A stretch of 50,626 bases of DNA, from assembly GCA_020831585.1 (NCBI GenBank), contig JAFIGE010000020.1:1-50626 (forward strand), given 5' to 3'. The stretch comes from Opitutales bacterium (GTDB taxonomy: Bacteria > Verrucomicrobiota > Verrucomicrobiia > Opitutales > Oceanipulchritudinaceae). Under the pieces are notes generated by a model that did no database searches, was not told the origin of the DNA, and saw only the letters and a program-made list of their open reading frames with translations. Numbering within the stretch: position 1 is the first letter of the stretch; each line of letters opens with the position of its first letter. Shown here piece by piece: positions 7,316 to 35,311 of this stretch. The translations under genes were made by a program, and so were the position numbers.

Positions 7316-9190
7316 ATGAAATTTCTTTTGCTTCCCACCCCATTCTTGCGAAGGGCAACGGCATTGGCCGTATGTTTTACCCTTGCTCCTTTCCTTACCG
7401 CCGGGCTTTTCACCCATGCCGACCTCCTCCCAAGTTTCGGCGACGGCAGTCTGACCAACGCCGGGTATTCATTTCAAGACCGTCAACCCCTCGCCTCTTT
7501 TGCGGATGAGACCGGCACGCTTTGGCAAGTTGTCGGCTATATTTCCCTGAACCGTTTGCCCGTCATACAATGGCGAAAACGCCAAGCCGAGGCACCTGAA
7601 TGGTCTCTTTGGGCGCGGCTCGGACCCGACGCCGCCATCCTACCGGCACCCGGATCCAACTGGCATGGCTACATGTCGGTGGCCATCGATACAGCCGGCT
7701 ATGCCCATTTCATCTGCGACGGGCGCGGCGGTTCCGAGGGTTTCCGCTACCACCGCTCCGACCTTCCGGTGCAGGCGGGCTGGACCGGCGGGCTCATCAA
7801 CCGCTCCGCCAACGGGCTGCCCGGCTGGAGCAGCCAAACCAACTCCACCTACTGGCGCTTTTCCAAGCATCCCCAAACAGGCCGCCTCACCCTCGCCCTG
7901 CGCCGTTCCGGCGGTGGTCATTCGATCTTTGTCCTCAACGCCGACAGCCAAACCTGGTCCGCCTTCCCCGGCACCCGAAACTCCGATGGCCGCCTCTTCC
8001 ACGACTCCGGGATCTTCGCCCAGTATGTCGCGCAGGATGTCGTCTTTCGCGGGGACGATCTCTACGTCGGCTACGTCCATCGTATCACCGGCACTGCGAC
8101 GACCAACGAAGACCTCAGCGTAATCAAGTTCGACGGCACCGCCAACCGCTGGCAACGCCTCGACGGCACCCCCCTCAGCACCCCTGTGACACCCTTCTCC
8201 GGAACCGTCGTTGATCCCTCCAAAACCGGCTCTATGCTCGACCACCGCTGGGATATGATGGCCGACGGCGCGGGCCATATTCACGGATTTTACCGCCGTT
8301 TGGACGAGAGCGGCTTTCTCCAGATCCATCACTTCTGGATCGATGAAAACGACACCGTGCACGGACCCGCCCCCATCACCGACACCCGTTACACACAATT
8401 TTGGCAGGATGCCGCCACCTCCCGTGCCAATCTTTCCCAGGCCCGCAGTTTCTACATCGCCGACCGCGTCTACGTCGCCTGGCAGGAACAAGCATTCGGT
8501 AACCGCACCGTCGCCGCCGCCGCACGCTATCCCTTCACCGAGTGGACCGCTCCCGTGGTCATCGATGAAACCGACCTTCTCGCCTCTGATCCCGAATTCG
8601 AACGGGGGGCGTGGGATACGCGCAACGAAATCTGGCTCGCCGCCATGCCCTTCCGGCAAAACACCCCTGCCGGTCGGCCCGTATCCGTTTCGCACATACG
8701 CTTCAATACCCTCCCCGTGCCCGCCGACGCACCCACCACCTACACCACCTGGATCCTCGGTTTCGAGGGCCTTCACGCACCCGCGCGCGCACCCTCCGCC
8801 AACCCCTCCCGCGACGGCCTTCCCAATCTCCTCAAATACGCCCTCGGCATCGACCCGCGCGAACCCGCTCCCCCCTCCGGCAAACTCCCCTTTGTCACCT
8901 CTCATAATGGGTCACCCGTCTTCCACTATTTCCACGACACTCGCCTGCCCGACATTGCCTATCATGTGGAATGGTCCGCCGACCTCGCAACCTGGCAACG
9001 CGACGGCCTCACCGTAACGATCCTGGAGCCCCATGATGGCCGCGAGCACCGCCAGGTCCGCCCCATCATCCCGGCCCACCCCCTCTTCTTCCGCCTCTCC
9101 GTCGAACCCCGCCCCCCCCAAACTGACCCCGCCCCTCTCACAATAAATGTCTCACCTGAGACATTTACGCCAACTCCTCCCCGGGCATGA
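7316..9190 (+). CDS. Secreted BNR-4 repeat (beta-propeller) protein with Opitutae C-terminal module
   Basis: 624 aa. A signal peptide covers about residues 1-36. A propeller-like region (about 40-470) contains BNR-4-type blades, for example SVAIDTAGYAHFICDGRGG, RYHRSD, HRWDMMADGAGHIHGFYRR and REIWLAAMP-like turns. BNR-4 proteins include secreted polysaccharide lyase-like propellers (PL24/25-type), so a glycan-binding or lyase role is plausible but unproven. Residues about 500-605 (DGLPNLLKYALGIDPREP, then YHVEWSADLATWQR) form the C-terminal module common on secreted Opitutae proteins. Oddly, the last 16 residues are encoded by a copy of the dispersed TGTCTCA palindrome (9144-9167) and its flank, so the original stop has probably been displaced. 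Coupled to the CapA-like gene. Confidence 0.72.
   Translation: MKFLLLPTPFLRRATALAVCFTLAPFLTAGLFTHADLLPSFGDGSLTNAGYSFQDRQPLASFADETGTLWQVVGYISLNRLPVIQWRKRQAEAPEWSLWARLGPDAAILPAPGSNWHGYMSVAIDTAGYAHFICDGRGGSEGFRYHRSDLPVQAGWTGGLINRSANGLPGWSSQTNSTYWRFSKHPQTGRLTLALRRSGGGHSIFVLNADSQTWSAFPGTRNSDGRLFHDSGIFAQYVAQDVVFRGDDLYVGYVHRITGTATTNEDLSVIKFDGTANRWQRLDGTPLSTPVTPFSGTVVDPSKTGSMLDHRWDMMADGAGHIHGFYRRLDESGFLQIHHFWIDENDTVHGPAPITDTRYTQFWQDAATSRANLSQARSFYIADRVYVAWQEQAFGNRTVAAAARYPFTEWTAPVVIDETDLLASDPEFERGAWDTRNEIWLAAMPFRQNTPAGRPVSVSHIRFNTLPVPADAPTTYTTWILGFEGLHAPARAPSANPSRDGLPNLLKYALGIDPREPAPPSGKLPFVTSHNGSPVFHYFHDTRLPDIAYHVEWSADLATWQRDGLTVTILEPHDGREHRQVRPIIPAHPLFFRLSVEPRPPQTDPAPLTINVSPETFTPTPPRA
9144..9167 (+). 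repeat. TGTCTCA palindrome copy 1, inside the 3' end of the BNR-4 gene
   Basis: The most perfect copy: arms of 11 bases (TAAATGTCTCA and TGAGACATTTA) around a CC centre at 9155-9156. It is preceded by CACAA (9139-9143) as in copy 2. It lies in the coding frame of the BNR-4 protein and is translated as part of INVSPETFT. Confidence 0.9.
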
Positions 9191-9203: not shown

Positions 9204-9237
9204 CACAATAGATGTCTCACCTGAGACATTTTTTGTG
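9204..9237 (+). repeat. TGTCTCA palindrome copy 2, extended 34-bp form
   Basis: Core ATGTCTCACCTGAGACAT at 9212-9229, with outer arms CACAA (9204-9208) and TTGTG (9233-9237), giving an imperfect 34-bp palindrome. The centre lies 65 bp from copy 1. Read on the plus strand, ATGTCTC/GAGACAT with an ACCT loop followed by six or more T (9229-9234) also looks like a rho-independent terminator for the BNR-4 gene. Confidence 0.88.
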
Positions 9238-26600: not shown

Positions 26601-27379
26601 TGCCTGCCGTTCCGGCGCGCATCATTGACGAGTTTTATGTCGTCCACGTGGGAGGGACGGCGGGAGAAACGCCCTTCCGGCGGGTCTTCGGCTACTACGC
26701 CGGGATGACCCTCGCCGACTATCTCCAGTTCGGAGCGCTCCACCCCATGCGGGTCTATCTCATCCATGCCGACGGCACCCCTTACCGCACCCCCACCGGT
26801 TTCAATCCCGGTGCCGGAACCTTCCTTCACGTTCGTGGCTACCGCGATTTTATTGATTTCGATGCCGGTGTCACCGTTCTCGAAGTCATCGAAAAGCCCC
26901 TCGTTGCCGCCCTTCCCAAGAATGTCATCATCGACGTGGATGCGGGTTTGGTCTCGCCCGACCTCCTCGACTTTTATAGCCGGGATTTCATTGATCCCTT
27001 TGCCGACGACGACGGCGATGGCTACACCAACCTCCAGGAGATCCTCGCCGGTTCAGATCCCTTCTCCGCTTCAAGTATACCCCGCAACCCCGCAGGGGAC
27101 GCTCAGGTGCCCCTTGATGCGCGACTGCCCGAGGTGAGCATTGTCAAAGATGAATGGGGTTATCACTACCAGCTCCAGTTTGAATTTCCGCCCGAGCTTT
27201 CACAGGACATCGTTTTCGCGCTCTATGTAAGTACCGATTTGGAGGACTTTTATCCAACCGGAGAAACGGCGAGTTGGACGGGTATGGGCACGAGTCACAG
27301 TGTGGTTCTGCCCTCTCCCAGCGGTTCACCCGGCGGCGCGCCCGGTGGATTCTACCGTCTGCGCCTGCGCTTGCGCTGA
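23636..27379 (+). CDS. Giant secreted protein with chitobiase-C-like and calcium-binding repeats
   Basis: 1247 aa. Signal peptide about residues 1-21 (TLSFLALVVAPLLSAA). Residues about 30-450 could form a propeller-like beta region. Around 480-560, RVEPAGGEYDATVFMSFSA followed by ..TVRYRAI..W..Y resembles the chitobiase/beta-hexosaminidase C-terminal (CHB_HEX_C_1) module. Two acidic calcium-loop segments follow the thrombospondin-3/EF-hand style: DANFDGVPDFVKSAFGLDP with DGDGDGVSD (about 565-600), and DDDGDGYTNLQEILAGSDPF (about 1125). The C-terminus is a short 'YVSTDLEDFYPTGE' domain as on many Opitutae exported proteins. Function unknown. Third large protein of the cluster. Confidence 0.68.
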   Translation: MAKIRTLSFLALVVAPLLSAAYIVETPSQILVSADFATNGRMGLVAVDRVDGTFAVADAAAGGDLVWRPRAYESGLSDVAAAATGRFFPASTGDFPALALTAPFANRAQVFDLRPFSPVYPRAVPVNSLLGPSLLATIDNETSNAPEALALAAVLAEPTGHRLGRIGWNGFAWRQLPGERTHPDAPVRVVSLPDALGLRRVVGLLHQKTTVSRVFTLHETGGPLIPVGQTALSGLPVDSDLRAIRLGPDDWIVRFATAGSLDSFHVHPWVNGALGAAAPVLLGASVTHFEVYPSVDRVYLTGRLAGGQLRVWEWIPQQAPVPAVDLSPAASAGFLGILPLGPEAFRLLRSAPGGDRLASVERFDKVGTNWKSGGVQPVPPVSRPLGGANVLFFSADPLRDPDARLLRGLRLADWSVAALDTGAKVLVSAAHWEGTSLGIGSAQEFNIGAAPAGTEVIHINQMRPDAAISTELRPLGDLPRSVRVEPAGGEYDATVFMSFSANPANSTVRYRAIHEAAWTNYTPGSEIPVFADTTILFVAEGFESPASPIGSVTYTFSTPPEQNDANFDGVPDFVKSAFGLDPQGAADGDGDGVSDLIELLAALEHGLDPAMVHDASAQPTNQQVEALGLRGEDVFSLGFRPLSPPPVTPFAGGDMASSPGGPLLPPPTQVFLHTLDGRFMGSALTTSTPDGVTARIPGLFAFDSDLFLVAATDAVFQPNAPEFSQIQPFGRQLLALVPAPQLPPRAFSGFIFGQHGGLANLPTEAIAWLQAYLDWRRNLPPQDAGIVALDVESTLHALLNEFVLGQLLYARRNAAGPETDPRVAIHPVVDPDNPDNLPVFVDPLAAFPVKHITLTGFRENEFAVPSARFAESVTGDLVPDVMPTAQQIKSLRWHRTSARPAIAPPFHALPPLEAVRHGVEFSALRDLARRIYRLSAQDDEARLRAPVDTLRHFIRTGDLPTAAWIDALASTPGGAFLLADAWAELNALLPAVPARIIDEFYVVHVGGTAGETPFRRVFGYYAGMTLADYLQFGALHPMRVYLIHADGTPYRTPTGFNPGAGTFLHVRGYRDFIDFDAGVTVLEVIEKPLVAALPKNVIIDVDAGLVSPDLLDFYSRDFIDPFADDDGDGYTNLQEILAGSDPFSASSIPRNPAGDAQVPLDARLPEVSIVKDEWGYHYQLQFEFPPELSQDIVFALYVSTDLEDFYPTGETASWTGMGTSHSVVLPSPSGSPGGAPGGFYRLRLRLR

Positions 27380-27461
27380 ACCTGCCAGCGTCTGCCGCAT
27401 CGCTATCGATACCAAACGGGCAAATCCCGGTAAGCCGTCCTTTCATCCCGCCCTTATCGGG

Positions 27462-27709
27462 ATGCAGGGTCAGCTGCACACTATCCATCCAGATTTGCAC
27501 GCTCTCCTAAGCCTGTTCGGCCTCTTCACGGCTGCGGCGCAGGATGCCCCTGTCGTCGCCACCCTCCTCTTTCTCGCCCCCCCCCCTTCGCGCCCGGCCT
27601 CACCCGTCTCGATCTCCTGCACTTGCAGCGCCACGCCGCCCTCCAAGCCTTCCTCTCCGCCACGACCCGCCAAACGCTCCTCGCTCAACTCGAATTAGCT
27701 CTTCCATAG
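27462..27709 (+). pseudogene. Small ORF broken at a C10 tract
   Basis: Starting at ATG 27,462 the frame reads MQGQLHTIHPDLHALLSLFG and then APVVATLLFLAPP before running into a C10 tract (27,577-27,586). With eleven C it would continue FAPGLTRLDLLHLQRHAALQ and end LAQLELALP at TAG 27,707-27,709, for 82 aa. The start codon lies in the 3' arm of a 7-bp hairpin. I do not recognise the product. It could be a decayed fragment, a sequencing error in a long C run, or a phase-variable gene. It follows the last giant secreted protein by 82 bp. Confidence 0.35.
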
Positions 27710-27825
27710 GTGAAGCCCACCACCATCCTCAGGCCGGTCAATGCACCGCTCAGTTCCCCACAAGCCTCAACCCGCAATACCCCCTTCGCCCCGCCCGCAC
27801 ACACCCTTCCTCCCCGTCTTCTAAA

Positions 27826-27841
27826 TGTCTCACCTGAGACA
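27826..27841 (+). repeat. TGTCTCA palindrome copy 4, upstream of paaX-like gene
   Basis: Perfect core TGTCTCA-CC-TGAGACA, preceded by TAAA. First of three copies upstream of the paaX-like gene; its centre is 42 bp from the next. Confidence 0.9.
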
Positions 27842-27867
27842 AATCTTTGCCAGTAAGGCATTATAAA

Positions 27868-27883
27868 TGTCTTACCTGAGACA
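27868..27883 (+). repeat. TGTCTCA palindrome copy 5, upstream of paaX-like gene
   Basis: Core TGTCTTA-CC-TGAGACA, one mismatch in the left arm. A TATAAA (27,862-27,867) directly abuts it, so a protein bound here would block a promoter placed there. Centre 47 bp from copy 6. Confidence 0.87.
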
Positions 27884-27914
27884 AAAACGGGGGAGGAACA
27901 AGTGGGGTTGTTTG

Positions 27915-27930
27915 TGTCTCACCTGAGACA
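27915..27930 (+). repeat. TGTCTCA palindrome copy 6, 40 bp before the paaX-like start
   Basis: Perfect core TGTCTCA-CC-TGAGACA followed by TTTTT. Its centre is 40 bp upstream of ATG 27,963, in the leader of the gene. Confidence 0.9.
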
Positions 27931-27962
27931 TTTTTGGCTTCACGGGAGGGCTTTTGCGGGTC

Positions 27963-28778
27963 ATGTTGGTGGGTATGAAAGCGAATACAATGCTGCTTCT
28001 TTACAATCTGTTGTGGACGGTCGACACGTTTGCGCGCCCTTCCTACCGGATGCTTGATGAGAGTTTCGAGGGTTGGGCACACCGGAGGGGTCTGCTCGGG
28101 CAGATCCACCGACTGGAGGCGGAGGGGTTTCTGGAATCCCAAGAGACCGCCTTTGACCGCAAGCGCATTGTTCGCCTGACGGAGGCGGGCAGGCGGGCAG
28201 CACTGGGCGGACGGGACCCCGAGGCCTGCTGGAGCACACCCTGGGACAAAAAGTGGCGTCTGGTGCTCTTTGATCTGCCTGCGGACGAGCATCGCTTGCG
28301 CAAGCAACTACACCGCTCCCTGAAGGCAAACGGTTGTGGATGCCTCCAGGGAAGCGTGTGGATCTCGGCGCGCCCTGTGCCGGACACAAAGCGTCTGTTC
28401 GAGAACCCGGGGCGCGACTGCTCTCACCTGATCCTCCTGGATGCCGTCTCCCGCGGCGCAAAGGTGGATCGCCAAATGGTGAACGCCGCCTACAGATGGG
28501 ATCGAATCAACGAAAACTACGAGGACCATTTGCAGGTTCTCCGGGACAAGCCCCCTTTTTCCGAAGGGCACGCGGCGTTCTTGGCCTGGTCCAGGCGGGA
28601 GAACAACGCCTGGCTGACAGCGGTGAGCGAAGATCCCCTCCTGCCCGCCGAACTCCTCCCCCGGGGCTATCTCGGACGCAAAGCCTGGAATAAGCGCAAA
28701 CGCGTTCTTAAAGGCATGGAAACCCGCTCGCGGAGCCTGCTCTCCAACCCAGTCCCCTCACCTCCCCGTGAAGCATGA
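27963..28778 (+). CDS. PaaX family regulator with central Cas2-like domain
   Basis: 271 aa from ATG 27,963 (GGGAGGG 12 bases upstream; a TTG at 27,954 and an ATG at 27,975 are alternatives). Residues about 10-80 form the winged helix-turn-helix (MLLLYNLLWTVDTF, RRGLLGQIHRLEAEGFLESQ, RLTEAGRRAAL). Residues about 94-170 form the Cas2-like ferredoxin fold of PaaX proteins (WDKKWRLVLFDLPADEHRLR, Asp104 in the FDLP strand; LKANGCGCLQGSVWIS). The C-terminus has the PaaX_C ending DPLLPAELLPRGYLGRKAW. In E. coli PaaX represses phenylacetate genes using phenylacetyl-CoA, but no such genes are here. The gene is flanked by four palindromes (three before, one after), pointing to self-regulation or a repeat-linked role. 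Confidence 0.85.
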   Translation: MLVGMKANTMLLLYNLLWTVDTFARPSYRMLDESFEGWAHRRGLLGQIHRLEAEGFLESQETAFDRKRIVRLTEAGRRAALGGRDPEACWSTPWDKKWRLVLFDLPADEHRLRKQLHRSLKANGCGCLQGSVWISARPVPDTKRLFENPGRDCSHLILLDAVSRGAKVDRQMVNAAYRWDRINENYEDHLQVLRDKPPFSEGHAAFLAWSRRENNAWLTAVSEDPLLPAELLPRGYLGRKAWNKRKRVLKGMETRSRSLLSNPVPSPPREA

Positions 28779-28792
28779 TCAAGGCAACTTTG

Positions 28793-28810
28793 ATGTCTCA
28801 GGTGAGACAT
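28793..28810 (-). repeat. TGTCTCA palindrome copy 7, inverted, after the paaX-like gene
   Basis: Perfect 18-bp form with GG centre (28,801-28,802), so in opposite orientation to the three upstream copies. It begins shortly after the paaX-like stop (28,776-28,778) and precedes the convergent thioredoxin-fold gene. Confidence 0.9.
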
Positions 28811-28884
28811 TCAGGTGGACGGGAGCCCAAGGTGGGCAGTGATTTGTGCAGGGGGGGGTGAGGAGGCGGGCCGGATCGCTCTCT

Positions 28885-29505
28885 TTAGAGCGCCGTTTTT
28901 ACGGCGTGGAGCAGGTCCTTTGTGGAAAGCCGCTCGCGGTAGTCGGGGTTGTGGTATCGAAAAACCACTTCACCTTGCGCGTTGGTCAGAAACACCGCCG
29001 GGACTGGCAGGATGCGGTGGGTTTCTCCCGAGGATGCCTCGATATCGATGCCAAATCCCTTGAGCCGCGCGAAGGTGGCTTCATCTACCCGAAAGGCGAC
29101 GCCAAAGGCCTGCATCGCCGACATGGAGCTATCCGAGAAAAGGCGGTAGGGATGGTCCGCACCGGCTTCAACTTCGGCAACGGCTTCGGGCCTATCAGGG
29201 GAAAGAGCGACTACCTGCACGCCGTGTTCTCTCAGCTGCGGAAACACGTCAGCCAAGGCGGCCAATTCGGTGTTGCAATAGGGACACCAACCACCGCGAT
29301 AAAACAGGAAAAGGGTCGGTTTGCCTTCGGCTAATTGGCGGACCGAAACGGGCACGCCCTCACCGTCACGAACCTCTACCCCGGGGAGGCGACTCCCGAC
29401 AGTGAGCGGGCTGACATCTTCGGCGCGTTCTGGGATTTCAGCCTTCCCGGCGAGCCCGGTGACCATCATGGCGAGGGCGAAACAGGTCATCAATCGTTTT
29501 TGCAT
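28885..29505 (-). CDS. Exported AhpC/TSA (peroxiredoxin-like) thioredoxin-fold protein
   Basis: 206 aa. Signal peptide about residues 1-22 (LMTCFALAMMVTGLAGKAE). The active-site segment FLFYRGGWCPYCNTELAAL (near residue 66-84) has a CxxC pair, as in the peroxiredoxin-like 'redoxin' branch, followed by VVALSPDRPEAV and the cis-Pro strand ILPVPAVFLTNAQGEVVFRY. It should act in the periplasm as a thiol peroxidase or disulfide reductase; which of the two is not clear. It stands alone, convergent with the paaX-like gene and divergent from the DinB-like gene. Confidence 0.85.
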   Translation of the reverse strand: MQKRLMTCFALAMMVTGLAGKAEIPERAEDVSPLTVGSRLPGVEVRDGEGVPVSVRQLAEGKPTLFLFYRGGWCPYCNTELAALADVFPQLREHGVQVVALSPDRPEAVAEVEAGADHPYRLFSDSSMSAMQAFGVAFRVDEATFARLKGFGIDIEASSGETHRILPVPAVFLTNAQGEVVFRYHNPDYRERLSTKDLLHAVKTAL

Positions 29506-29681
29506 ACTGCTTCAAGACGTGATACTTACCGCAATATTCCATTGTTTTCTTCGAGACGGCGGGCGACGGACGATTCGGCGATCAAACCTCTTTTTGGAAT
29601 AATGTCCCACGTAGGGCGTCACCTTTCCCTGTAAGGAAGACGCGCCATTCCTCGTTGTCTCCCTCAACCTGACTAATCCGC

Positions 29682-30221
29682 ATGACCGAACCACCTTTCG
29701 AACACATTCGCTTCAGTGTCGTGGAAACCCTGCGGCAAGGTGATTGCCTCCTCGTGGCGATCGACGACACGTCCTACACCGCTCCGATTGAAGCGGTCTA
29801 CGGTGCCACCATCGGGAGCCACTATCGCCACTGTCTGGAACACTTCGAGGCCCTGCTCAATACGGTTGCCTCGGGGCGGGTCGATTACGATGCGCGCCTG
29901 CGCGATCCCGTCGTTGAAAACGACCGGGCGACCGCGCTTGTCCGCACCCGGGCGCTCATTGCTCGTTTCCGCGATGGTCTGGCGAAGGAGGAATTGGCCG
30001 CACCGGTTTCCATCCGATGCAAGGTCTCCTATCTTGGAGAGGTTTCGCCGGAAGTGGCGTCGACCTTTGCGCGGGAAGCCATGTATGCGGTCGTGCATGC
30101 GATTCACCACTACGCGCTCATCGGCATTATCTGCCGCTTGCAGGGTGTTCCGCCGCCCGAGGGATTTGGGATTGCGCCATCGACGGCACAGCACCGCCGC
30201 CTTTCCTCCACCCGCAGCTGA
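29682..30221 (+). CDS. DinB-like four-helix protein
   Basis: 179 aa. Features of the DinB/YfiT-like metal-binding bundle are visible: GATIGSHYRHCLEHFEALL (about residue 41-59) with His residues of the first site, and YAVVHAIHHYALIGIICRL (about 140-158) with the second His pair, ending in the typical GFGIAPST. Members are thiol S-transferase-like or unknown. No catalytic role can be read here. The ribosome site is weak. A GNAT/acyltransferase gene overlaps or follows at once, so the pair may be co-transcribed. Confidence 0.72.
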   Translation: MTEPPFEHIRFSVVETLRQGDCLLVAIDDTSYTAPIEAVYGATIGSHYRHCLEHFEALLNTVASGRVDYDARLRDPVVENDRATALVRTRALIARFRDGLAKEELAAPVSIRCKVSYLGEVSPEVASTFAREAMYAVVHAIHHYALIGIICRLQGVPPPEGFGIAPSTAQHRRLSSTRS

Positions 30222-31770
30222 AAGCTCATCATGTGCACGCCTCAGCTGGCAATGCTCGCCCGGAAAGCTTGTCGTCGTGGCCAACCATCCCCTCGGGGGT
30301 ATTGATTTCTTCGCTTTGGCGCACCTTCTCGACTCTGTTCGTCCTGGTGCGTGGAAGTTTTTCAGCAACCAGATTCTCACCGCTTTGCCGGTTTTCCGAG
30401 ACCACCTCCTATCGATCGACGTTCTTGGTCGCAGCCCGGCGGCCCATTCTCTCAATCGGCGCGGTCTGGCCGACGCCATCCGCTGTCTGCGCTCGGGCGG
30501 TATCATCGGCCTCTTCCCGGCGGGACGTGTGGCCCACCGCCACCGGGATCTCGGCGGCGCCCTCGCCGACCGCGCATGGAGCGAGCATGCGGTTCGTTTG
30601 GCTGCCAAAACGGGTGCCGCTGTGGCCTGCCTCCACATCAGTGGTCAAAACAGCCCTTTCTTTCTTCGCCTGCCGCCAACGTGGCCACGTTTGCGTGCCC
30701 TCATGCTTTGCCGCGAGTTCACCCGGCCAGTTGTAACGAAAATCCAACTACAGCTGGCCTTTCTGGGGAAAGTCGAAGACATGGGGGTTCCGCTGCCTCA
30801 GGCGACTGCCTGGTTGCATGCCCGGTGCCACCTGCAGGCTGATCTGGCAGACGCCGCCCGGCCACAGCCCGGGCTGGAAAAGCCACAGAGCCCGGTGTCT
30901 CTCCCGCCGACAAACAACCTTCCGGGGGAGTTGAAGCGCGACCCCGCCGCGCACCTCGCCAGTCACGGTTCGTTCGACCTCTTTTTTCTCGCCGGGCGGG
31001 AGGTGCCGGAGACCCTGCAAGCCCTGGGGCGCGCCCGCGAGCACACCTTTCGCACCGCCGGACAGGGTACCGGGCAAGCGGTCGATCTGGCCCCCGAAGA
31101 CACGCATTATCATCATTTGATTCTATGGGACCGCAAAGGCCAACAGCTCGCCGGGGCTTACCGGGTGGGGCTCGTTTCAGAGATTCTTGCCAAGAAAGGA
31201 GCCGGCGGTCTTTACCTCCACCACGTATTTCACCTGCGCCCGGCTCTCTTTCGCGCCATGGGGGAAACCCTTGAACTGAGCCGCTCCTTTGTCTTGCCCG
31301 CCTACCAACGGGAGAGTGACGCCCTCGCCGCTCTGTGGAAGGGGCTGGGCGCGGTCGCGACGGCCAGAAAGGCGAAGACGTTTTTTGGCTCCGTGACGAT
31401 CTCCAACGCACACCATCCGGCCTCGCGTGCCATCCTTGTTGATCATCTCCGCCGAAATTATGGGGATGACCCGACTCTGTGCCGCCTCGTGCGGCCGCGT
31501 CGTCCCCTTATTCCGCCATCCCATTATCATTCCCTTTTCAGCGATGCCTATGCCGGCCAGCCGGTCGCAGCGTTGGCCCCCCTCATTGACGAGATCGAAC
31601 AAGGCAAAAGGGGTATTCCGCCCCTTATCCGTTACTATTGCGGAATTGGGGCAAAGTTCCTCGGCTTTCACGTCGAGGCGGCTTTTCAAGATGCGCTCTA
31701 CTGCCTCCTTCGGGTGGACATTCCCTCCATTCCACCGGCCTACCGGCGGCGGTTTATGCCGCGCGGGTGA
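30166..31770 (+). CDS. OlsF-like bifunctional acyltransferase (PlsC-like plus GNAT), N-terminus uncertain
   Basis: Up to 534 aa. The N-terminal part has lysophospholipid acyltransferase motifs VVVANHPLGGIDFF (NHxxxxD) and GLFPAGRV (glycine-rich site). The C-terminal part (from about residue 260) is the hemolysin/OlsB-type GNAT domain: LGRAREHTFRTAGQGTGQAV, LILWDRKGQQLAGAYRVG, LELSRSFVLPAYQ, FGSVTISN. This fusion matches OlsF, which makes ornithine lipids by N- then O-acylation, so a membrane-lipid role is likely. Oddly, the NHPLGG motif lies only 20-40 codons from any possible start. In-frame TTG codons (30,166 and 30,172) lie inside the DinB-like gene, and GTG 30,277 is inside the motif strand. 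The usual 60-100 leading residues are missing, so the gene may be 5'-truncated. Confidence 0.72.
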   Translation: MGLRHRRHSTAAFPPPAAESSSCARLSWQCSPGKLVVVANHPLGGIDFFALAHLLDSVRPGAWKFFSNQILTALPVFRDHLLSIDVLGRSPAAHSLNRRGLADAIRCLRSGGIIGLFPAGRVAHRHRDLGGALADRAWSEHAVRLAAKTGAAVACLHISGQNSPFFLRLPPTWPRLRALMLCREFTRPVVTKIQLQLAFLGKVEDMGVPLPQATAWLHARCHLQADLADAARPQPGLEKPQSPVSLPPTNNLPGELKRDPAAHLASHGSFDLFFLAGREVPETLQALGRAREHTFRTAGQGTGQAVDLAPEDTHYHHLILWDRKGQQLAGAYRVGLVSEILAKKGAGGLYLHHVFHLRPALFRAMGETLELSRSFVLPAYQRESDALAALWKGLGAVATARKAKTFFGSVTISNAHHPASRAILVDHLRRNYGDDPTLCRLVRPRRPLIPPSHYHSLFSDAYAGQPVAALAPLIDEIEQGKRGIPPLIRYYCGIGAKFLGFHVEAAFQDALYCLLRVDIPSIPPAYRRRFMPRG

Positions 31771-31828
31771 AATCAGGCCCGCAATGGAAGGGTGTCGCGG
31801 AAAATCGCAAACAGGCGGAATATCGTAT

Positions 31829-31854
31829 GGAATAACGAACCGGTGCCGACGTCA
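31829..31854 (+). promoter_or_regulatory. Possible ECF-type promoter before the yceI remnant/sigma operon
   Basis: GGAATA (31,829-31,834) and CGTCA (31,850-31,854) are separated by 15 bases, as in many ECF sigma promoters (GGAAC-like -35, CGTC-like -10). It lies 41 bp upstream of the first start codon of an operon encoding an ECF sigma factor, so autoregulation is possible. Short motifs of this kind arise by chance. Confidence 0.25.
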
Positions 31855-31894
31855 AAGGATAGGTCTACCTTTTAACCTCCAGAAACATTGTGAC

Positions 31895-32180
31895 ATGCAA
31901 AATTTGTTCCCCCGTTTTCCCCCCCTTCACAAAGCAAGTCGCCTCCTCACAAAGCGCATGCGCGTCGGGATTTCACTCCTTGCCTTGATCAATCCACTCT
32001 GCCTGTCGGGAGCGGACTACGCCCTTAAGAAGCACCGTATTGAATGGAGCGGCTCCATGCCCGCCTCCACCCTTCAATGAGAACTACCAAAACTCCGGCA
32101 TCTTCGGCACGGCCAAGGACAAAATCATCAGGGATCTCGTGGTCCTCACGATCTCCCTCCACGTCGTTCGGCAAAATTGA
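31895..32180 (+). pseudogene. YceI-like gene with an internal deletion
   Basis: The 5' part (ATG 31,895 or 31,958) encodes a signal peptide (RVGISLLALINPLCLSGA) and the start of a YceI domain, ADYALKKHRIEWSGSMPAST. The frame then stops at 32,078-32,080. In another frame the text resumes as FNENYQNSGIFGTAKDKII and then RDLVVLTISLHVVRQN, ending at TGA 32,178-32,180, which resembles the last two strands of verrucomicrobial YceI proteins. About 100-110 residues of the lipocalin-like middle are absent, so this looks like a deletion remnant rather than a sequencing slip. YceI proteins bind isoprenoid-type lipids in the periplasm. It is the first gene of the sigma-factor operon. Confidence 0.55.
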
Positions 32181-32193
32181 AAAAGCTTTCCGC

Positions 32194-32427
32194 ATGAAAA
32201 TAAACACCCCACACGTCCATTCCTCAACGCGGCCAAGCTGCGCGGGCGGGTGCGGCGGGAACGGATTCTGTCCCGGAATGGCGCTCCTCCTATCCCTTGG
32301 ATCGGCCTACGCCCTGCACCACTTCACCGGGTGGGGCTGGGCCGTCATCCCGGTCGTGGTCTTCGGCACCCTCGCGCTCGTCTTGGGCCTCCACAACTAT
32401 TTGAATCCTTTTCGCCGGCGCGGTTGA
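32194..32427 (+). CDS. Small Cys/Gly-rich membrane protein (77 aa) in the sigma operon
   Basis: From ATG 32,194: a short N-terminus, then CAGGCGGNGFCPG (three Cys), then two hydrophobic helices (MALLLSLGSAYALHHFTGW and AVIPVVVFGTLALVLGLHNY), ending FRRRG. No family recognised. The clustered Cys next to a membrane could bind a metal or respond to thiol stress. It starts 13 bases after the YceI remnant and ends 4 bases before the sigma gene, so it is co-transcribed with the sigma/anti-sigma pair. No clear ribosome site. Confidence 0.6.
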   Translation: MKINTPHVHSSTRPSCAGGCGGNGFCPGMALLLSLGSAYALHHFTGWGWAVIPVVVFGTLALVLGLHNYLNPFRRRG

Positions 32428-32431
32428 GACC

Positions 32432-32989
32432 ATGAACCCCGAAACCTTCACCCGCGTCGTCGATGAATGGCATGAGCCACTCTACCGCTTTGCCTTATCT
32501 CTCTGCCGCAATCCCGACGATGCCCTCGACCACACGCAAAACGCCTTCCACAAGCTCGCTGTGAAAGCGCACACCATCCGGGACAAAAGCAAAGTGAAGA
32601 CGTGGCTTTTCAGCGTGCTCTATCGCGATTTCGCGGATCGCTACCGGCGGAACAAGCGGCACCCCTCCACCCCCCTCGACTGCCTTGCCGAGCAAGCAGA
32701 GGAGCCACCTGCCGAAGCCGGGCGCGCGGTCGATACCGACCGCCTCCTCGTCCTCCTCGCCGGAATGGAGGAGCCCTACCGGGCACCTCTTGTTCTCTTC
32801 TACATGCGTTCGTTTTCCTACAAGGAAATCGCCGAAACGCTGGACGTGCCCATCGGCACGGTCATGTCGCGACTGCGGCGGGCCAAAGACCAGCTTCGCT
32901 CCCGTTTCGAAAGCGACGAAGCCGAACCTGCAAACGGGGACGAAAACCCGGCCCTTCCCCCTCCCATTCCTTTCAAAAAGAGAGCCTGA
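32432..32989 (+). CDS. ECF-type RNA polymerase sigma factor
   Basis: 185 aa. Region 2 covers about residues 8-75 (EPLYRFALSLCRNPDDALDH with the DxxQ-like DHTQNAFHKL, VKTWLFSVLYRDFADRYRR). Region 4 covers about 110-165 (LAGMEEPYRAPLVLFYMRSF, SYKEIAETLDVPIGTVMSRL). A Pro/Glu-rich tail follows. ATG 32,432 is 4 bases after the small membrane protein. The anti-sigma gene starts 1 base after the stop. It probably directs a cell-envelope or oxidative stress response, but its regulon is unknown. Confidence 0.92.
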   Translation: MNPETFTRVVDEWHEPLYRFALSLCRNPDDALDHTQNAFHKLAVKAHTIRDKSKVKTWLFSVLYRDFADRYRRNKRHPSTPLDCLAEQAEEPPAEAGRAVDTDRLLVLLAGMEEPYRAPLVLFYMRSFSYKEIAETLDVPIGTVMSRLRRAKDQLRSRFESDEAEPANGDENPALPPPIPFKKRA

Positions 32990-32990
32990 A

Positions 32991-33740
32991 ATGGACAACC
33001 CAACCGCCAAAGAAATCCTCAGTGCCTACCGCCCCCATGGTTCCGATGCCGCCGATGCAGCCTTTCAGGACGCCCTTCACCAGTGCGAAGACGATCCCGC
33101 GTTACGGGCCTGGTTTGCCTCCGAACGCGCTTTTGACGAGCGCATGAGCGCCGCTCTCGGAAAGGTCCGTGCCCCGGTTGAGGGTAAGCAAGCCATTCTC
33201 GCCACAAGCGTCTTTTCAAGTCGCACAAAGCGGTCCCGGCGATGGCACCTGTGGGGGCTCGGCCTTGCCGCCATCCTCCTCATCTCCCCGGCATGGCTCC
33301 TTCTCATGCCGTCCGGTTCACCCACTGGAGCCCCCCCTCATGCTGCGGCGATAGCAGTGCCGTCTCTCGCCGAGTTGGCCGAAAATGCCTTGCCCCTGGA
33401 CTTCGAGGGGCGTGATACTACGGCCCTTCTTGCTTGGCTGGCCGGCCGCAAAGCCCCTCAGCCGTATCGATTGCCAGACGTCCTGGCTGCGGCCAATGCC
33501 GCCGGTTGCCGCGTCTTTGACTTCGGAGAAGCGGGGCAAGTCAGCCTCCTCTGTTTCGAAATCGACGGCAGCATCGTTCACTTCTTCATTTTTGACGAAC
33601 GGAGCGGCCCCCGCTTTGCCGAGCCAGCGGATTCCTGGACTCAGCAAGGCGACTGGCACCTCCTCACCTTCGAAGACAAAGGCCGCCTAATGGCCTTCGC
33701 CACAACAACCACCCCCACCGACCTTGGCTTTCCTTTCTAG
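32991..33740 (+). CDS. Anti-sigma factor-like membrane protein
   Basis: 249 aa. A cytoplasmic N-terminal segment (residues 1-80) contains AYRPHGSDAADAAFQDALHQ and DPALRAWFASERAFDERMSA, a pattern seen in anti-sigma proteins of Opitutae. One membrane helix follows (about 86-106, WGLGLAAILLISPAWLLLMP), then a periplasmic domain of about 140 residues. Starts 1 base after the ECF sigma stop, with a purine-rich AGAGAG upstream. The position and topology make it the likely inhibitor of the sigma factor. It lacks an obvious zinc-type HxxxCxxC motif. Confidence 0.8.
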   Translation: MDNPTAKEILSAYRPHGSDAADAAFQDALHQCEDDPALRAWFASERAFDERMSAALGKVRAPVEGKQAILATSVFSSRTKRSRRWHLWGLGLAAILLISPAWLLLMPSGSPTGAPPHAAAIAVPSLAELAENALPLDFEGRDTTALLAWLAGRKAPQPYRLPDVLAAANAAGCRVFDFGEAGQVSLLCFEIDGSIVHFFIFDERSGPRFAEPADSWTQQGDWHLLTFEDKGRLMAFATTTTPTDLGFPF

Positions 33741-33816
33741 AAACCGCCCGCCCTGCCCCAACTCCGCCGCCCCGCCTTTACCCCCCGCCTCAAATACCTA
33801 GTCAATACACCGTTAG

Positions 33817-33833
33817 ATGTCTCACCTGAGACA
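33817..33833 (+). repeat. TGTCTCA palindrome copy 8
   Basis: Perfect core TGTCTCA-CC-TGAGACA (33,818-33,833) preceded by TTAGA. Left half of the inverted doublet; its centre is 36 bp from that of copy 9. Confidence 0.9.
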
Positions 33834-33852
33834 ATTTTGCAGTTCCATTAAA

Positions 33853-33870
33853 ATGTCTCAGGTGAGACAT
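33853..33870 (-). repeat. TGTCTCA palindrome copy 9, inverted
   Basis: Perfect 18-bp form with GG centre (33,861-33,862), followed by CTAA. Right half of the inverted doublet. Confidence 0.9.
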
Positions 33871-34054
33871 CTAATGTGTAGGAGTTTTGTTGGTTTCGCA
33901 TACGGGAGGGGTTCCCGGTGGCGGAGGTGGGGAGGGGGGATCGATCCACCGGTCATCGCGATGCGGCGGGGGAGGATCGTTTAGTCGGCGTGCCGCTTTC
34001 GGGAGATGTGCAGTAAGCTCGTTTGGGGTGTTTTGCGGTGCCTTTGATCGGTAT

Positions 34055-35311
34055 CTAAACCCAGTCTTTGAGATCGGCGACAAAGACACGTCGTGTGCCA
34101 CCGATGAAGCCGTTGAAGGTCACGTATCGCCAGGATCGATCCCATGCCGGGTGGGGATCGACACGGAGGATGGGATCCGCGCAGTTTTGGCGGGTGTTTA
34201 GGCGCACGAGGACGGTTTCGCGGCCGGATTCCAGATCAATCCAGCGCAAAGGAATGGTGCCGTCGCCAAAGGCCATGGGTTCATCTGTGTAGGTGTCGGT
34301 GAGGATATGGGTGCCGTTTGCGTGAATGGTCGGGTGGCCCGATCCGGTGGTATGGGCGAGGATTTTGCGGAGGCCGGACCCGTCCGCATTCACTTGGGCA
34401 AAGCGCAAGGTATCGCGGTCGATGTTCAGATTCATGGAGATGCGCCGACCATCCGGAAACCAGGTGGCGTGGTGCCCGCCCTTCTCCCATTCCTCAGGTC
34501 CGACGGCGCAGTGCATTTCTTTGCCATCGAGGGTCATGGAAACCCACGCGAAGCGGACGGTGGGCATGGCGGTGGCAAAGAGGTTCCAGCGAGGCTCGGA
34601 CGCGGAGGGGAACCACCGGAGACTGACCATGAGACGGTCGCCCTGAGGATTGAATTTGCTGTGGAATCCATAGATCTCGTACCGCTCCGGGTCGTCCAAG
34701 CGGAGGGGCGGGTTGGCTTTGGCGAGGATGTCGGCGAGGGAAGCGATAAGGTGCGTCTTGCCGGTGGCCGTATTGGTGAGGTAGAAGCCATCATCTTTCG
34801 CCGGCACACGATTCCACCGCATTTTTTCGAGCGGAACGCATACGCCGTATCCCGGTTGGGTGCGGCGCATGGTTGTCATGTTTGCGGATATGAGCCAGCG
34901 ACCTTTGGGGGAGGCGTGATAGACCGTGCCCTCCATTTTCTGACGTTTTCCGCTGAGCGGATCTACCTTCCAGGCAAAGGGCATCCAGCTGACAGTATCG
35001 ACATCGTTGAAGTAAAGCTCGTTGTCGGAACCGCCCCAATTGACATTGGCCCCCATCTGGGGCTCCCAACCGCAGGTCTCGCCCACAATGCGATTCTCGC
35101 CCGTTTGCAGGTCGATCACCCGCACGCGCCCGGTTTCGCCCGGTTCGGGTTGGCGGTCTTCGAAGGGCAACTGGAAGACCGCCAGATAGCGTCCCGAAGG
35201 ACTGATGGGAGCGGTGTCAAAGAAGCGGTGAATGCACCCCGGAACATCCGGGGTGACGCACCAGACCGGGACTTTGGGATCAAAGTCTGTGTAACGGGGA
35301 AAGCACTTCAT
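34055..35311 (-). CDS. PD40/TolB-like beta-propeller protein, oligogalacturonate-lyase-like
   Basis: 418 aa, no signal peptide. Repeated propeller blades are visible: FDTAPISPSGRYLAVFQLPF, NVNWGGSDNELYFNDVD, GFHSKFNPQGDRLMVSLRW, GGHHATWFPDGRRISMN and VDPHPAWDRSWRYVTFNG. The general build matches PD40/TolB propellers and recalls oligogalacturonate lyase (PL22). I cannot confirm the catalytic His/metal set, so an enzymatic role is only possible. Its ATG overlaps the stop of the upstream NAD(P)-binding gene (ATGA), so it is the last gene of a coupled four-gene operon. Confidence 0.65.
   Translation of the reverse strand: MKCFPRYTDFDPKVPVWCVTPDVPGCIHRFFDTAPISPSGRYLAVFQLPFEDRQPEPGETGRVRVIDLQTGENRIVGETCGWEPQMGANVNWGGSDNELYFNDVDTVSWMPFAWKVDPLSGKRQKMEGTVYHASPKGRWLISANMTTMRRTQPGYGVCVPLEKMRWNRVPAKDDGFYLTNTATGKTHLIASLADILAKANPPLRLDDPERYEIYGFHSKFNPQGDRLMVSLRWFPSASEPRWNLFATAMPTVRFAWVSMTLDGKEMHCAVGPEEWEKGGHHATWFPDGRRISMNLNIDRDTLRFAQVNADGSGLRKILAHTTGSGHPTIHANGTHILTDTYTDEPMAFGDGTIPLRWIDLESGRETVLVRLNTRQNCADPILRVDPHPAWDRSWRYVTFNGFIGGTRRVFVADLKDWV

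Follow-up and report, generated by a model that had tools for sequence, protein, structure and literature searches.

The closest described counterparts of the locus analyzed here are the REP/RAYT systems ('REPtrons'). In these, extragenic palindromes enclose a lone gene and are scattered over the rest of the genome too, several gene/palindrome pairs occur per genome, the palindromes form inverted pairs, and now and then a copy sits in frame within a housekeeping or repair gene (PMC3733652). RAYTs belong to the HUH/Y1 tyrosine transposases, in the IS200/IS605 group, and REPs are GTAG-tagged; a CGTC class without a dedicated transposase has been described as well (PMC3733652). PaaX of E. coli, a homolog of the protein considered here, is an aryl-CoA-responsive repressor. 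We know of no nuclease activity of PaaX. Rickettsia palindromic elements (RPEs) are palindromic repeats that small genomes carry as in-frame parts of protein-coding genes, and no cognate gene of these elements is known to us. The paaX-like gene analyzed here, which lies in a 50,626-nucleotide stretch of DNA (the window), resembles RAYT genes in standing alone between extragenic palindromes of which further copies are scattered through the genome, with several gene/palindrome pairs in the genome and inverted palindrome pairs, but its product is a winged-helix, Cas2-fold relative of PaaX and the palindromes lack the GTAG tag. GTAG or CTAC occurs within 12 bp of the palindrome in only 1 of 22 copies from the genome that contains the window, and GTAG/CGTC tags are generally rare. 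No earlier description of PaaX in connection with palindromes or a transposase, Cas2, Patescibacteria or candidate phyla was found in the open-access literature.

The gene encodes 267 amino acids at positions 27975..28778 of the + strand, the ATG at 27975 (MKANT...) being the most likely start judging from the alignment with its paralogues. A search of the window for TGTCTCANNTGAGACA, with up to three mismatches allowed, detected 8 sites, compared with a mean of 0.92 and a maximum of 3 in 100 shuffles; none of these sites is assigned a strand. Three palindromes precede the gene and one follows it, as described in the earlier note, which also correctly gave 42 and 47 bp as the distances between the upstream copies, along with the CC and GG centers. 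The upstream copies, all with a CC center, are located at 27826..27841 (exact), 27868..27883 (one mismatch) and 27915..27930 (exact, nearest to the start, a terminator-like stem followed by a T run), and the inverted downstream copy, with a GG center, at 28794..28809 (exact). The latter begins 15 bp past the stop (28778), in agreement with the previous measurement, whereas the upstream distances, formerly put at 32-130 bp, become -149, -107 and -60 from the ATG at 27975. The argument from helical turns that had been built on the 42 and 47 bp spacings is uninformative, given that one or two upstream copies, differently spaced, are found elsewhere.

Four further copies, rather than the five claimed, are present in the window, and contrary to the original description, not all of them are apart from coding sequences. 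The copy at 9148..9163 overlaps the 3' end (the last 43 bp) of the ORF 7316-9190 and forms a pair, with a spacing of 65 bp, with the copy at 9213..9228, which lies between convergent BNR_4-type and LacI-type ORFs; the same type of pair is found at two other loci of this genome. The copies at 33818..33833 (center CC) and 33854..33869 (center GG) are an inverted pair within a single long, REPIN-like hairpin (33806-33880; dG -25.7 kcal/mol as DNA, z -10.5) that has a homolog at C136:130/166 in the same genome. In the whole genome, the TGTCTCANNTGAGACA palindrome is represented by 22 copies, the majority of the dispersed ones being located at gene 3' ends or between convergent genes. The Rfam search of positions 27000-34500 gave 0 matches. 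Elsewhere in this genome, C76 and C201 share, with 88% identity, a 192-bp stretch that surrounds a palindrome pair (L022 7134-7325 and L026 7850-8037); each also has, some way off, a 98% identical gene for a 215-aa protein without a Pfam match, and the intervening stretch differs between the two.

The protein consists of an N-terminal winged helix, a central PaaX_M/Cas2-like domain and a C-terminal PaaX_C domain. The proposal that it is a PaaX protein with a Cas2-like center holds: numbered from the TTG at 27954, the sequence matches PF20803 (PaaX_M) with an E-value of 5.2e-15 and a score of 55.7 bits, above the gathering cut-off of 24, and PF08223 with an E-value of 2e-4. The AF2 model (pLDDT 85) aligns with Rv0674 and E. 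coli PaaX along almost its entire length (Z 14); its N terminus matches MarR-type winged helices, and its central part matches Cas2 structures with Z of 7-8 over 70 residues, which is weak when taken alone and agrees with Pfam. The protein is probably a dimer that combines a winged helix with the Cas2 fold. It is homologous to E. coli PaaX (8a39) over most of the length (5e-11; Foldseek E 3e-9) but falls below the cut-off of the TIGR02277 PaaX equivalog (62 bits compared with 264.55), no paa (phenylacetate catabolism) genes were recognized near the paaX-like genes, and E. coli PaaX has neither flanking palindromes nor the Asp of the FDxP motif. This Asp falls at the site of the metal-binding Asp of Cas2. 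As in Cas2 and VapD, the central domain has a ferredoxin-like Cas2 fold and retains the Cas2-type Asp and a Q-x-S motif, but here it is fused to a winged helix, and no Cas1 gene or CRISPR array was recognized beside these genes. With kinship ignored, the Asp is found in 55 of 55 proteins of the palindrome-linked classes compared with 8 of 16 others (p 1e-6), a sequence-level correlation. By class, it is present in 35/35 short and 7/15 long proteins of Patescibacteria (CPR) and in all those of Verrucomicrobiota. No match to HUH/Y1 tyrosine transposases was detected, the Pfam and NCBIfam searches yielding only PaaX, Cas2-like and winged-helix families; PADLOC produced weak Cas2 matches only and the PHROGs library none. 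In the window, the gene has a TSP3-repeat protein and an AhpC/TSA protein as neighbors; across the loci, there is no conserved partner gene, and neighbors are common only to close pairs of genomes.

The same genome encodes three intact PaaX_M genes of this type (the window gene on C143 and those on C12, 70%, and C225, 68%), each with its own kind of site. Like the window gene with its CC/GG-centered copies, the C12 gene is bracketed by this palindrome, there with long arms and a GC center (GAGCAAAAAATGTCTCAGCTGAGACATTTTTTGCTC before the gene and TAGCAAAAAATGTCTCAGCTGAGACATTTTTTGCTA after it, the latter containing the stop codon), whereas the C225 gene has, on each side, two imperfect palindromes of another kind (GTCA-SS-TGAC), which is also dispersed, with pairs on C101 and C125. 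A broken fourth paaX-like gene, on C238, is flanked in the same way as that on C225. Homology between the C225 and C238 units, one of which is degenerate, extends from one outer palindrome to the other and gives way to unrelated neighbors beyond, and the unit ends are inverted copies of each other. Because the homology ends at the outer palindromes, this looks like the duplication of a palindrome-bounded unit. Combined with an exact asymmetric terminal inverted repeat (TIR) in L052, C225 and C238 present the configuration expected of a transposon, namely a duplicated unit that ends in terminal inverted repeats and has different surroundings at each site. The impression recorded in the earlier note, that the inverted flanks resemble the ends of a small mobile unit, is strengthened by this shared unit, the L052 TIR and the recurrence of the arrangement in another phylum.

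The palindromes track the gene across genomes. The exact TGTCTCANNTGAGACA motif occurs 21 times in its own genome, compared with 0-1 in each of 54 relatives from the same family and order, among which only G001 has a gene of this type (46% identity), on a contig to which L051 corresponds in length and sequence, with its own, different palindromes, and G037 has a marginal, broken match. Similarly, G056 carries 26 copies of its own palindrome and the 116 other genomes of its family none; two of these, G068 and G071, possess the gene with another palindrome type. The earlier suggestion that copy number might follow the presence of the gene is thus borne out, and the core does not reach a similar density in genomes that lack the gene. 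A scan of 84,980 species yielded 19 loci with this gene type, nearly all of them in Verrucomicrobiota, and most of these have 30-60 bp palindromes on either side, which resemble each other at a given locus and vary from genome to genome (for example, CCACAATTCTTGTCGCGGCCGCGACAAGAATTGTGG); the L056 locus has no flanking palindromes. In a test with fixed rules and author-chosen palindrome thresholds (both-sided score ≥8), palindromes flank 11 of 20 paaX-like genes of Verrucomicrobiota on both sides compared with 2 of 133 other genes (p 6e-10); here and below, the genomes are mostly MAGs and the gene calls are home-made. In ten genomes, the commonest palindrome type is represented by 26, 26, 17, 13, 11, 8, 6, 3, 3 and 2 copies (reversed control, 0), and overall, the copy numbers are low (2-33), far under those of classical REPs.

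One of the scan loci comes from Candidatus Kaiserbacteria, where a 188-aa protein has palindromes on both sides, the only two in that genome. A profile search identified relatives in 91 of 287 Patescibacteria genomes, with up to nine or more per genome of 0.7-1.3 Mb. Judging from five proteins that were scanned, these fall into two classes, a long one with PaaX_C and a short one (∼180 aa) without it. At the same threshold (score ≥8), both-sided palindromes flank 18 of 35 short CPR genes but 0 of 14 long ones (p 6e-4); among other genes, the figure is 1 of 33. In one genome, G185, there are several paralogues, each with its own matched palindrome pair, and the palindrome core occurs 33 times compared with 4 for the control; 16 of the 21 dispersed copies examined are intergenic, and the copies are long, mostly perfect and form families that match the paralogues. 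The copies in tsaD and trmD coincide, respectively, with 16 and 10 extra in-frame residues that are absent from the aligned PDB homologs, and look like in-frame insertions, both in this one genome. In-frame palindromes of this kind are known from REPs (PMC3733652), and the position within coding sequences of a small genome is a likeness to the RPEs. A copy in mutM of G185 was considered as another such case and dismissed, there being no net insertion relative to the homologs. The TrmD, TsaD and MutM proteins of G185 (L244 1809-2555, L248 1155-2336 and L238 1631-2620) also contain further extra segments unrelated to these palindromes, for example KSKALRVKNLR and LQSKIKSKNFKTQ, perhaps representing another intragenic repeat family. 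The possibility that the palindrome is a sigma-70 promoter was rejected: promoter elements beat shuffles in 6 of 35 CPR upstream regions, and there is no such promoter in the window. The upstream palindrome of L177 (CPR genome G274) contains a perfectly spaced TTGACG-17-TATAAT, which is not evident in most other loci.

The evolution of individual sites can be followed in two congeners, G055 and G056, which share about 13 copies at orthologous places, some of them with diverged flanks. Four unshared copies that were tested have an orthologous locus without the palindrome, where the whole intergenic region is turned over. Gain and loss at orthologous sites are seen between congeners; in this comparison, where intergenic turnover is great, no clean empty site, target-site duplication or recent transposition was observed. 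Both arms change together between orthologous copies (L084, CACAATGATTGTC..GACAATCATTGTG; L096, TACAATCTTTGTC..GACAAAGATTGTA). Among 115 copies from nine genomes, half-to-half symmetry exceeds that in shuffles at positions 1, 6, 7 and 15, and the inner positions 13-14 are not symmetric. Comparison of upstream with downstream copies gives 29 paired and 21 single changes in CPR, and 6 paired and 20 single changes in Verrucomicrobiota. Arm symmetry is thus maintained, either through selection on pairing or through a copying mechanism such as template switching. Wobble-type asymmetries are in excess on one strand (65 compared with 21), a value reached by 1 of 1000 shuffles and confounded by the linked positions 13-14, which is suggestive of single-strand pairing. 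At L108/L146 (G055/G056), a block of ∼90 bp adjoining the palindrome is near-identical within a diverged intergenic region and looks like a conserved small RNA gene.

The sequences directly show that gene and palindromes are paired in two phyla and distributed together, that the palindromes are gene-specific, dispersed and symmetric in their arms, and, in one case, where the unit ends. We are inclined, by a slight balance of probability, to interpret these features as a REP/RAYT-like partnership that involves a protein of a different family. Under this scheme, the protein would recognize its own palindrome, and such binding is likely; the flanking palindromes would be the ends of a compact unit of ∼0.9 kb, and the palindromes scattered singly or in pairs would be short, non-autonomous descendants of this unit that went mostly into intergenic regions and at times, in frame, into genes. 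That the palindromes propagate as mobile elements appears, on balance, probable. Within the partnership, there is a roughly even chance that cleavage or copying of hairpin DNA is the work of the protein itself, perhaps via the conserved Cas2-type Asp; another transposase could move the palindromes instead. Through the copy immediately before its start, the gene is probably autoregulated as well, and the regulator and repeat roles may go together. The partnership is favored because the copies track the gene, each paralogue or ortholog has its own palindrome, both-sided palindromes are enriched at paaX-like genes in two phyla, C225 and C238 share a unit up to the outer palindromes with the L052 TIR in addition, paired changes keep the arms symmetric, TsaD and TrmD contain extra in-frame residues, the Cas2-type Asp is invariant in the palindrome-linked classes, and gain and loss occur at orthologous sites between congeners. 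Several observations speak against it: there is no clean empty site or target-site duplication, some of the ∼13 orthologous copies outlast the divergence of their flanks, as functional sites would, the protein is homologous to known repressors, copy numbers are low, single changes exceed paired ones in Verrucomicrobiota and positions 13-14 are asymmetric, and the in-frame cases come from one genome, with no net insertion in mutM.

The strongest alternative regards the protein as an autoregulated global transcription factor and the palindromes as its many operators, gained and lost through ordinary mutation and selection, with the downstream copy aiding looping or shielding a convergent neighbor. 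This explanation, which we rate as unlikely but in need of serious consideration, fits the family of the protein, that of the repressor PaaX, the presence, in most Verrucomicrobiota loci, of a copy that begins at -46 to -60 relative to the start codon, the asymmetry of the inner positions, the copies retained at orthologous places in G055 and G056, and the location of the sites, of which 18 are divergent, 23 tandem and 8 convergent over four genomes, with a leaning towards upstream regions in G055, G056 and G058. It does not fit nearly as readily the second palindrome at the stop codon in most loci, the dispersed copies of the window genome and G060, which mostly lie at gene 3' ends or have convergent genes on their two sides, or the genes adjoining the dispersed sites, which are mixed, without a common theme, and mostly differ between genera; a regulon defined by conserved targets was, indeed, tried and abandoned, the shared targets lying nearly all inside one genus. 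Furthermore, arms of up to 54 bp stay near-perfectly symmetric via paired changes that would be superfluous in an operator, up to nine paralogues, many with their own palindrome, coexist in genomes of 1 Mb, the unit is duplicated with the palindromes as its ends, and promoter elements exceed shuffles in only 6 of the 35 upstream regions. Of the two readings offered by the earlier note, a repeat family maintained with the help of the protein is now better supported than a plain global regulator; binding and mobilization are the parts that we infer.

The palindromes could also be ordinary REP or MITE elements moved by an unrelated transposase, such as a RAYT, with the PaaX-like gene captured or using them as operators. 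REP and RAYT elements do occur in Verrucomicrobiota, and Opitutus terrae is rich in GTAG repeats (PMC3733652), but this origin is improbable in view of the single GTAG among the 22 copies, the lack of palindromes in the relatives without the gene, and the tie between palindrome sequence and PaaX-like gene in each genome and for each paralogue across two phyla. Even less credible is an origin as bidirectional transcription terminators that are alike by chance: some window copies do combine an A-run, a hairpin and a T-run and sit between convergent genes, but three copies are upstream of the gene, the T run is absent from most Verrucomicrobiota and CPR palindromes, terminator-like matches in the region are near the shuffle level (3 compared with 1.7), and neither the sequence identity nor the gene linkage would be explained. 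We similarly give very little credence to a structure-specific nuclease or nucleoid protein, with the Cas2-fold protein acting on cruciform or hairpin DNA in chromosome maintenance or in a toxin-like manner and the palindromes being fixed chromosomal sites. The invariance of the Cas2-type Asp in the palindrome-linked classes and the strong hairpins formed by long perfect palindromes would agree with such a function, but the absence of a conserved partner gene, the weak Cas2 matches in PADLOC with none in PHROGs, and the patchy distribution argue against it.

A broader and more tentative proposal, which we hold to be possible rather than probable, is that these loci represent a class of mobile repeats, from Verrucomicrobiota to Patescibacteria, in which winged-helix/Cas2-fold proteins recognize and propagate their own hairpin palindromes, a Cas2-fold counterpart of the HUH RAYTs. 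If so, this would be a second, independent solution to the REP/RAYT problem, Cas2-fold proteins would gain a role outside CRISPR adaptation and toxins, and the palindrome families would be explained, as would, in part, the expansion of PaaX_M genes in Patescibacteria; the findings could also bear on the origin of Cas2 itself. Should the proteins be regulators instead, they would constitute a large collection of regulators, each complete with its operators, in which changes in the protein go along with changes in the DNA site, and paralogues with their own sites in one genome would be a good system for studying the divergence of DNA-binding specificity. In G065, the genome that contains L049, two palindrome subfamilies, ACAAT..ATTGT and TCAAT..ATTGA, were noticed, which predicts a second paaX-like gene in that genome.
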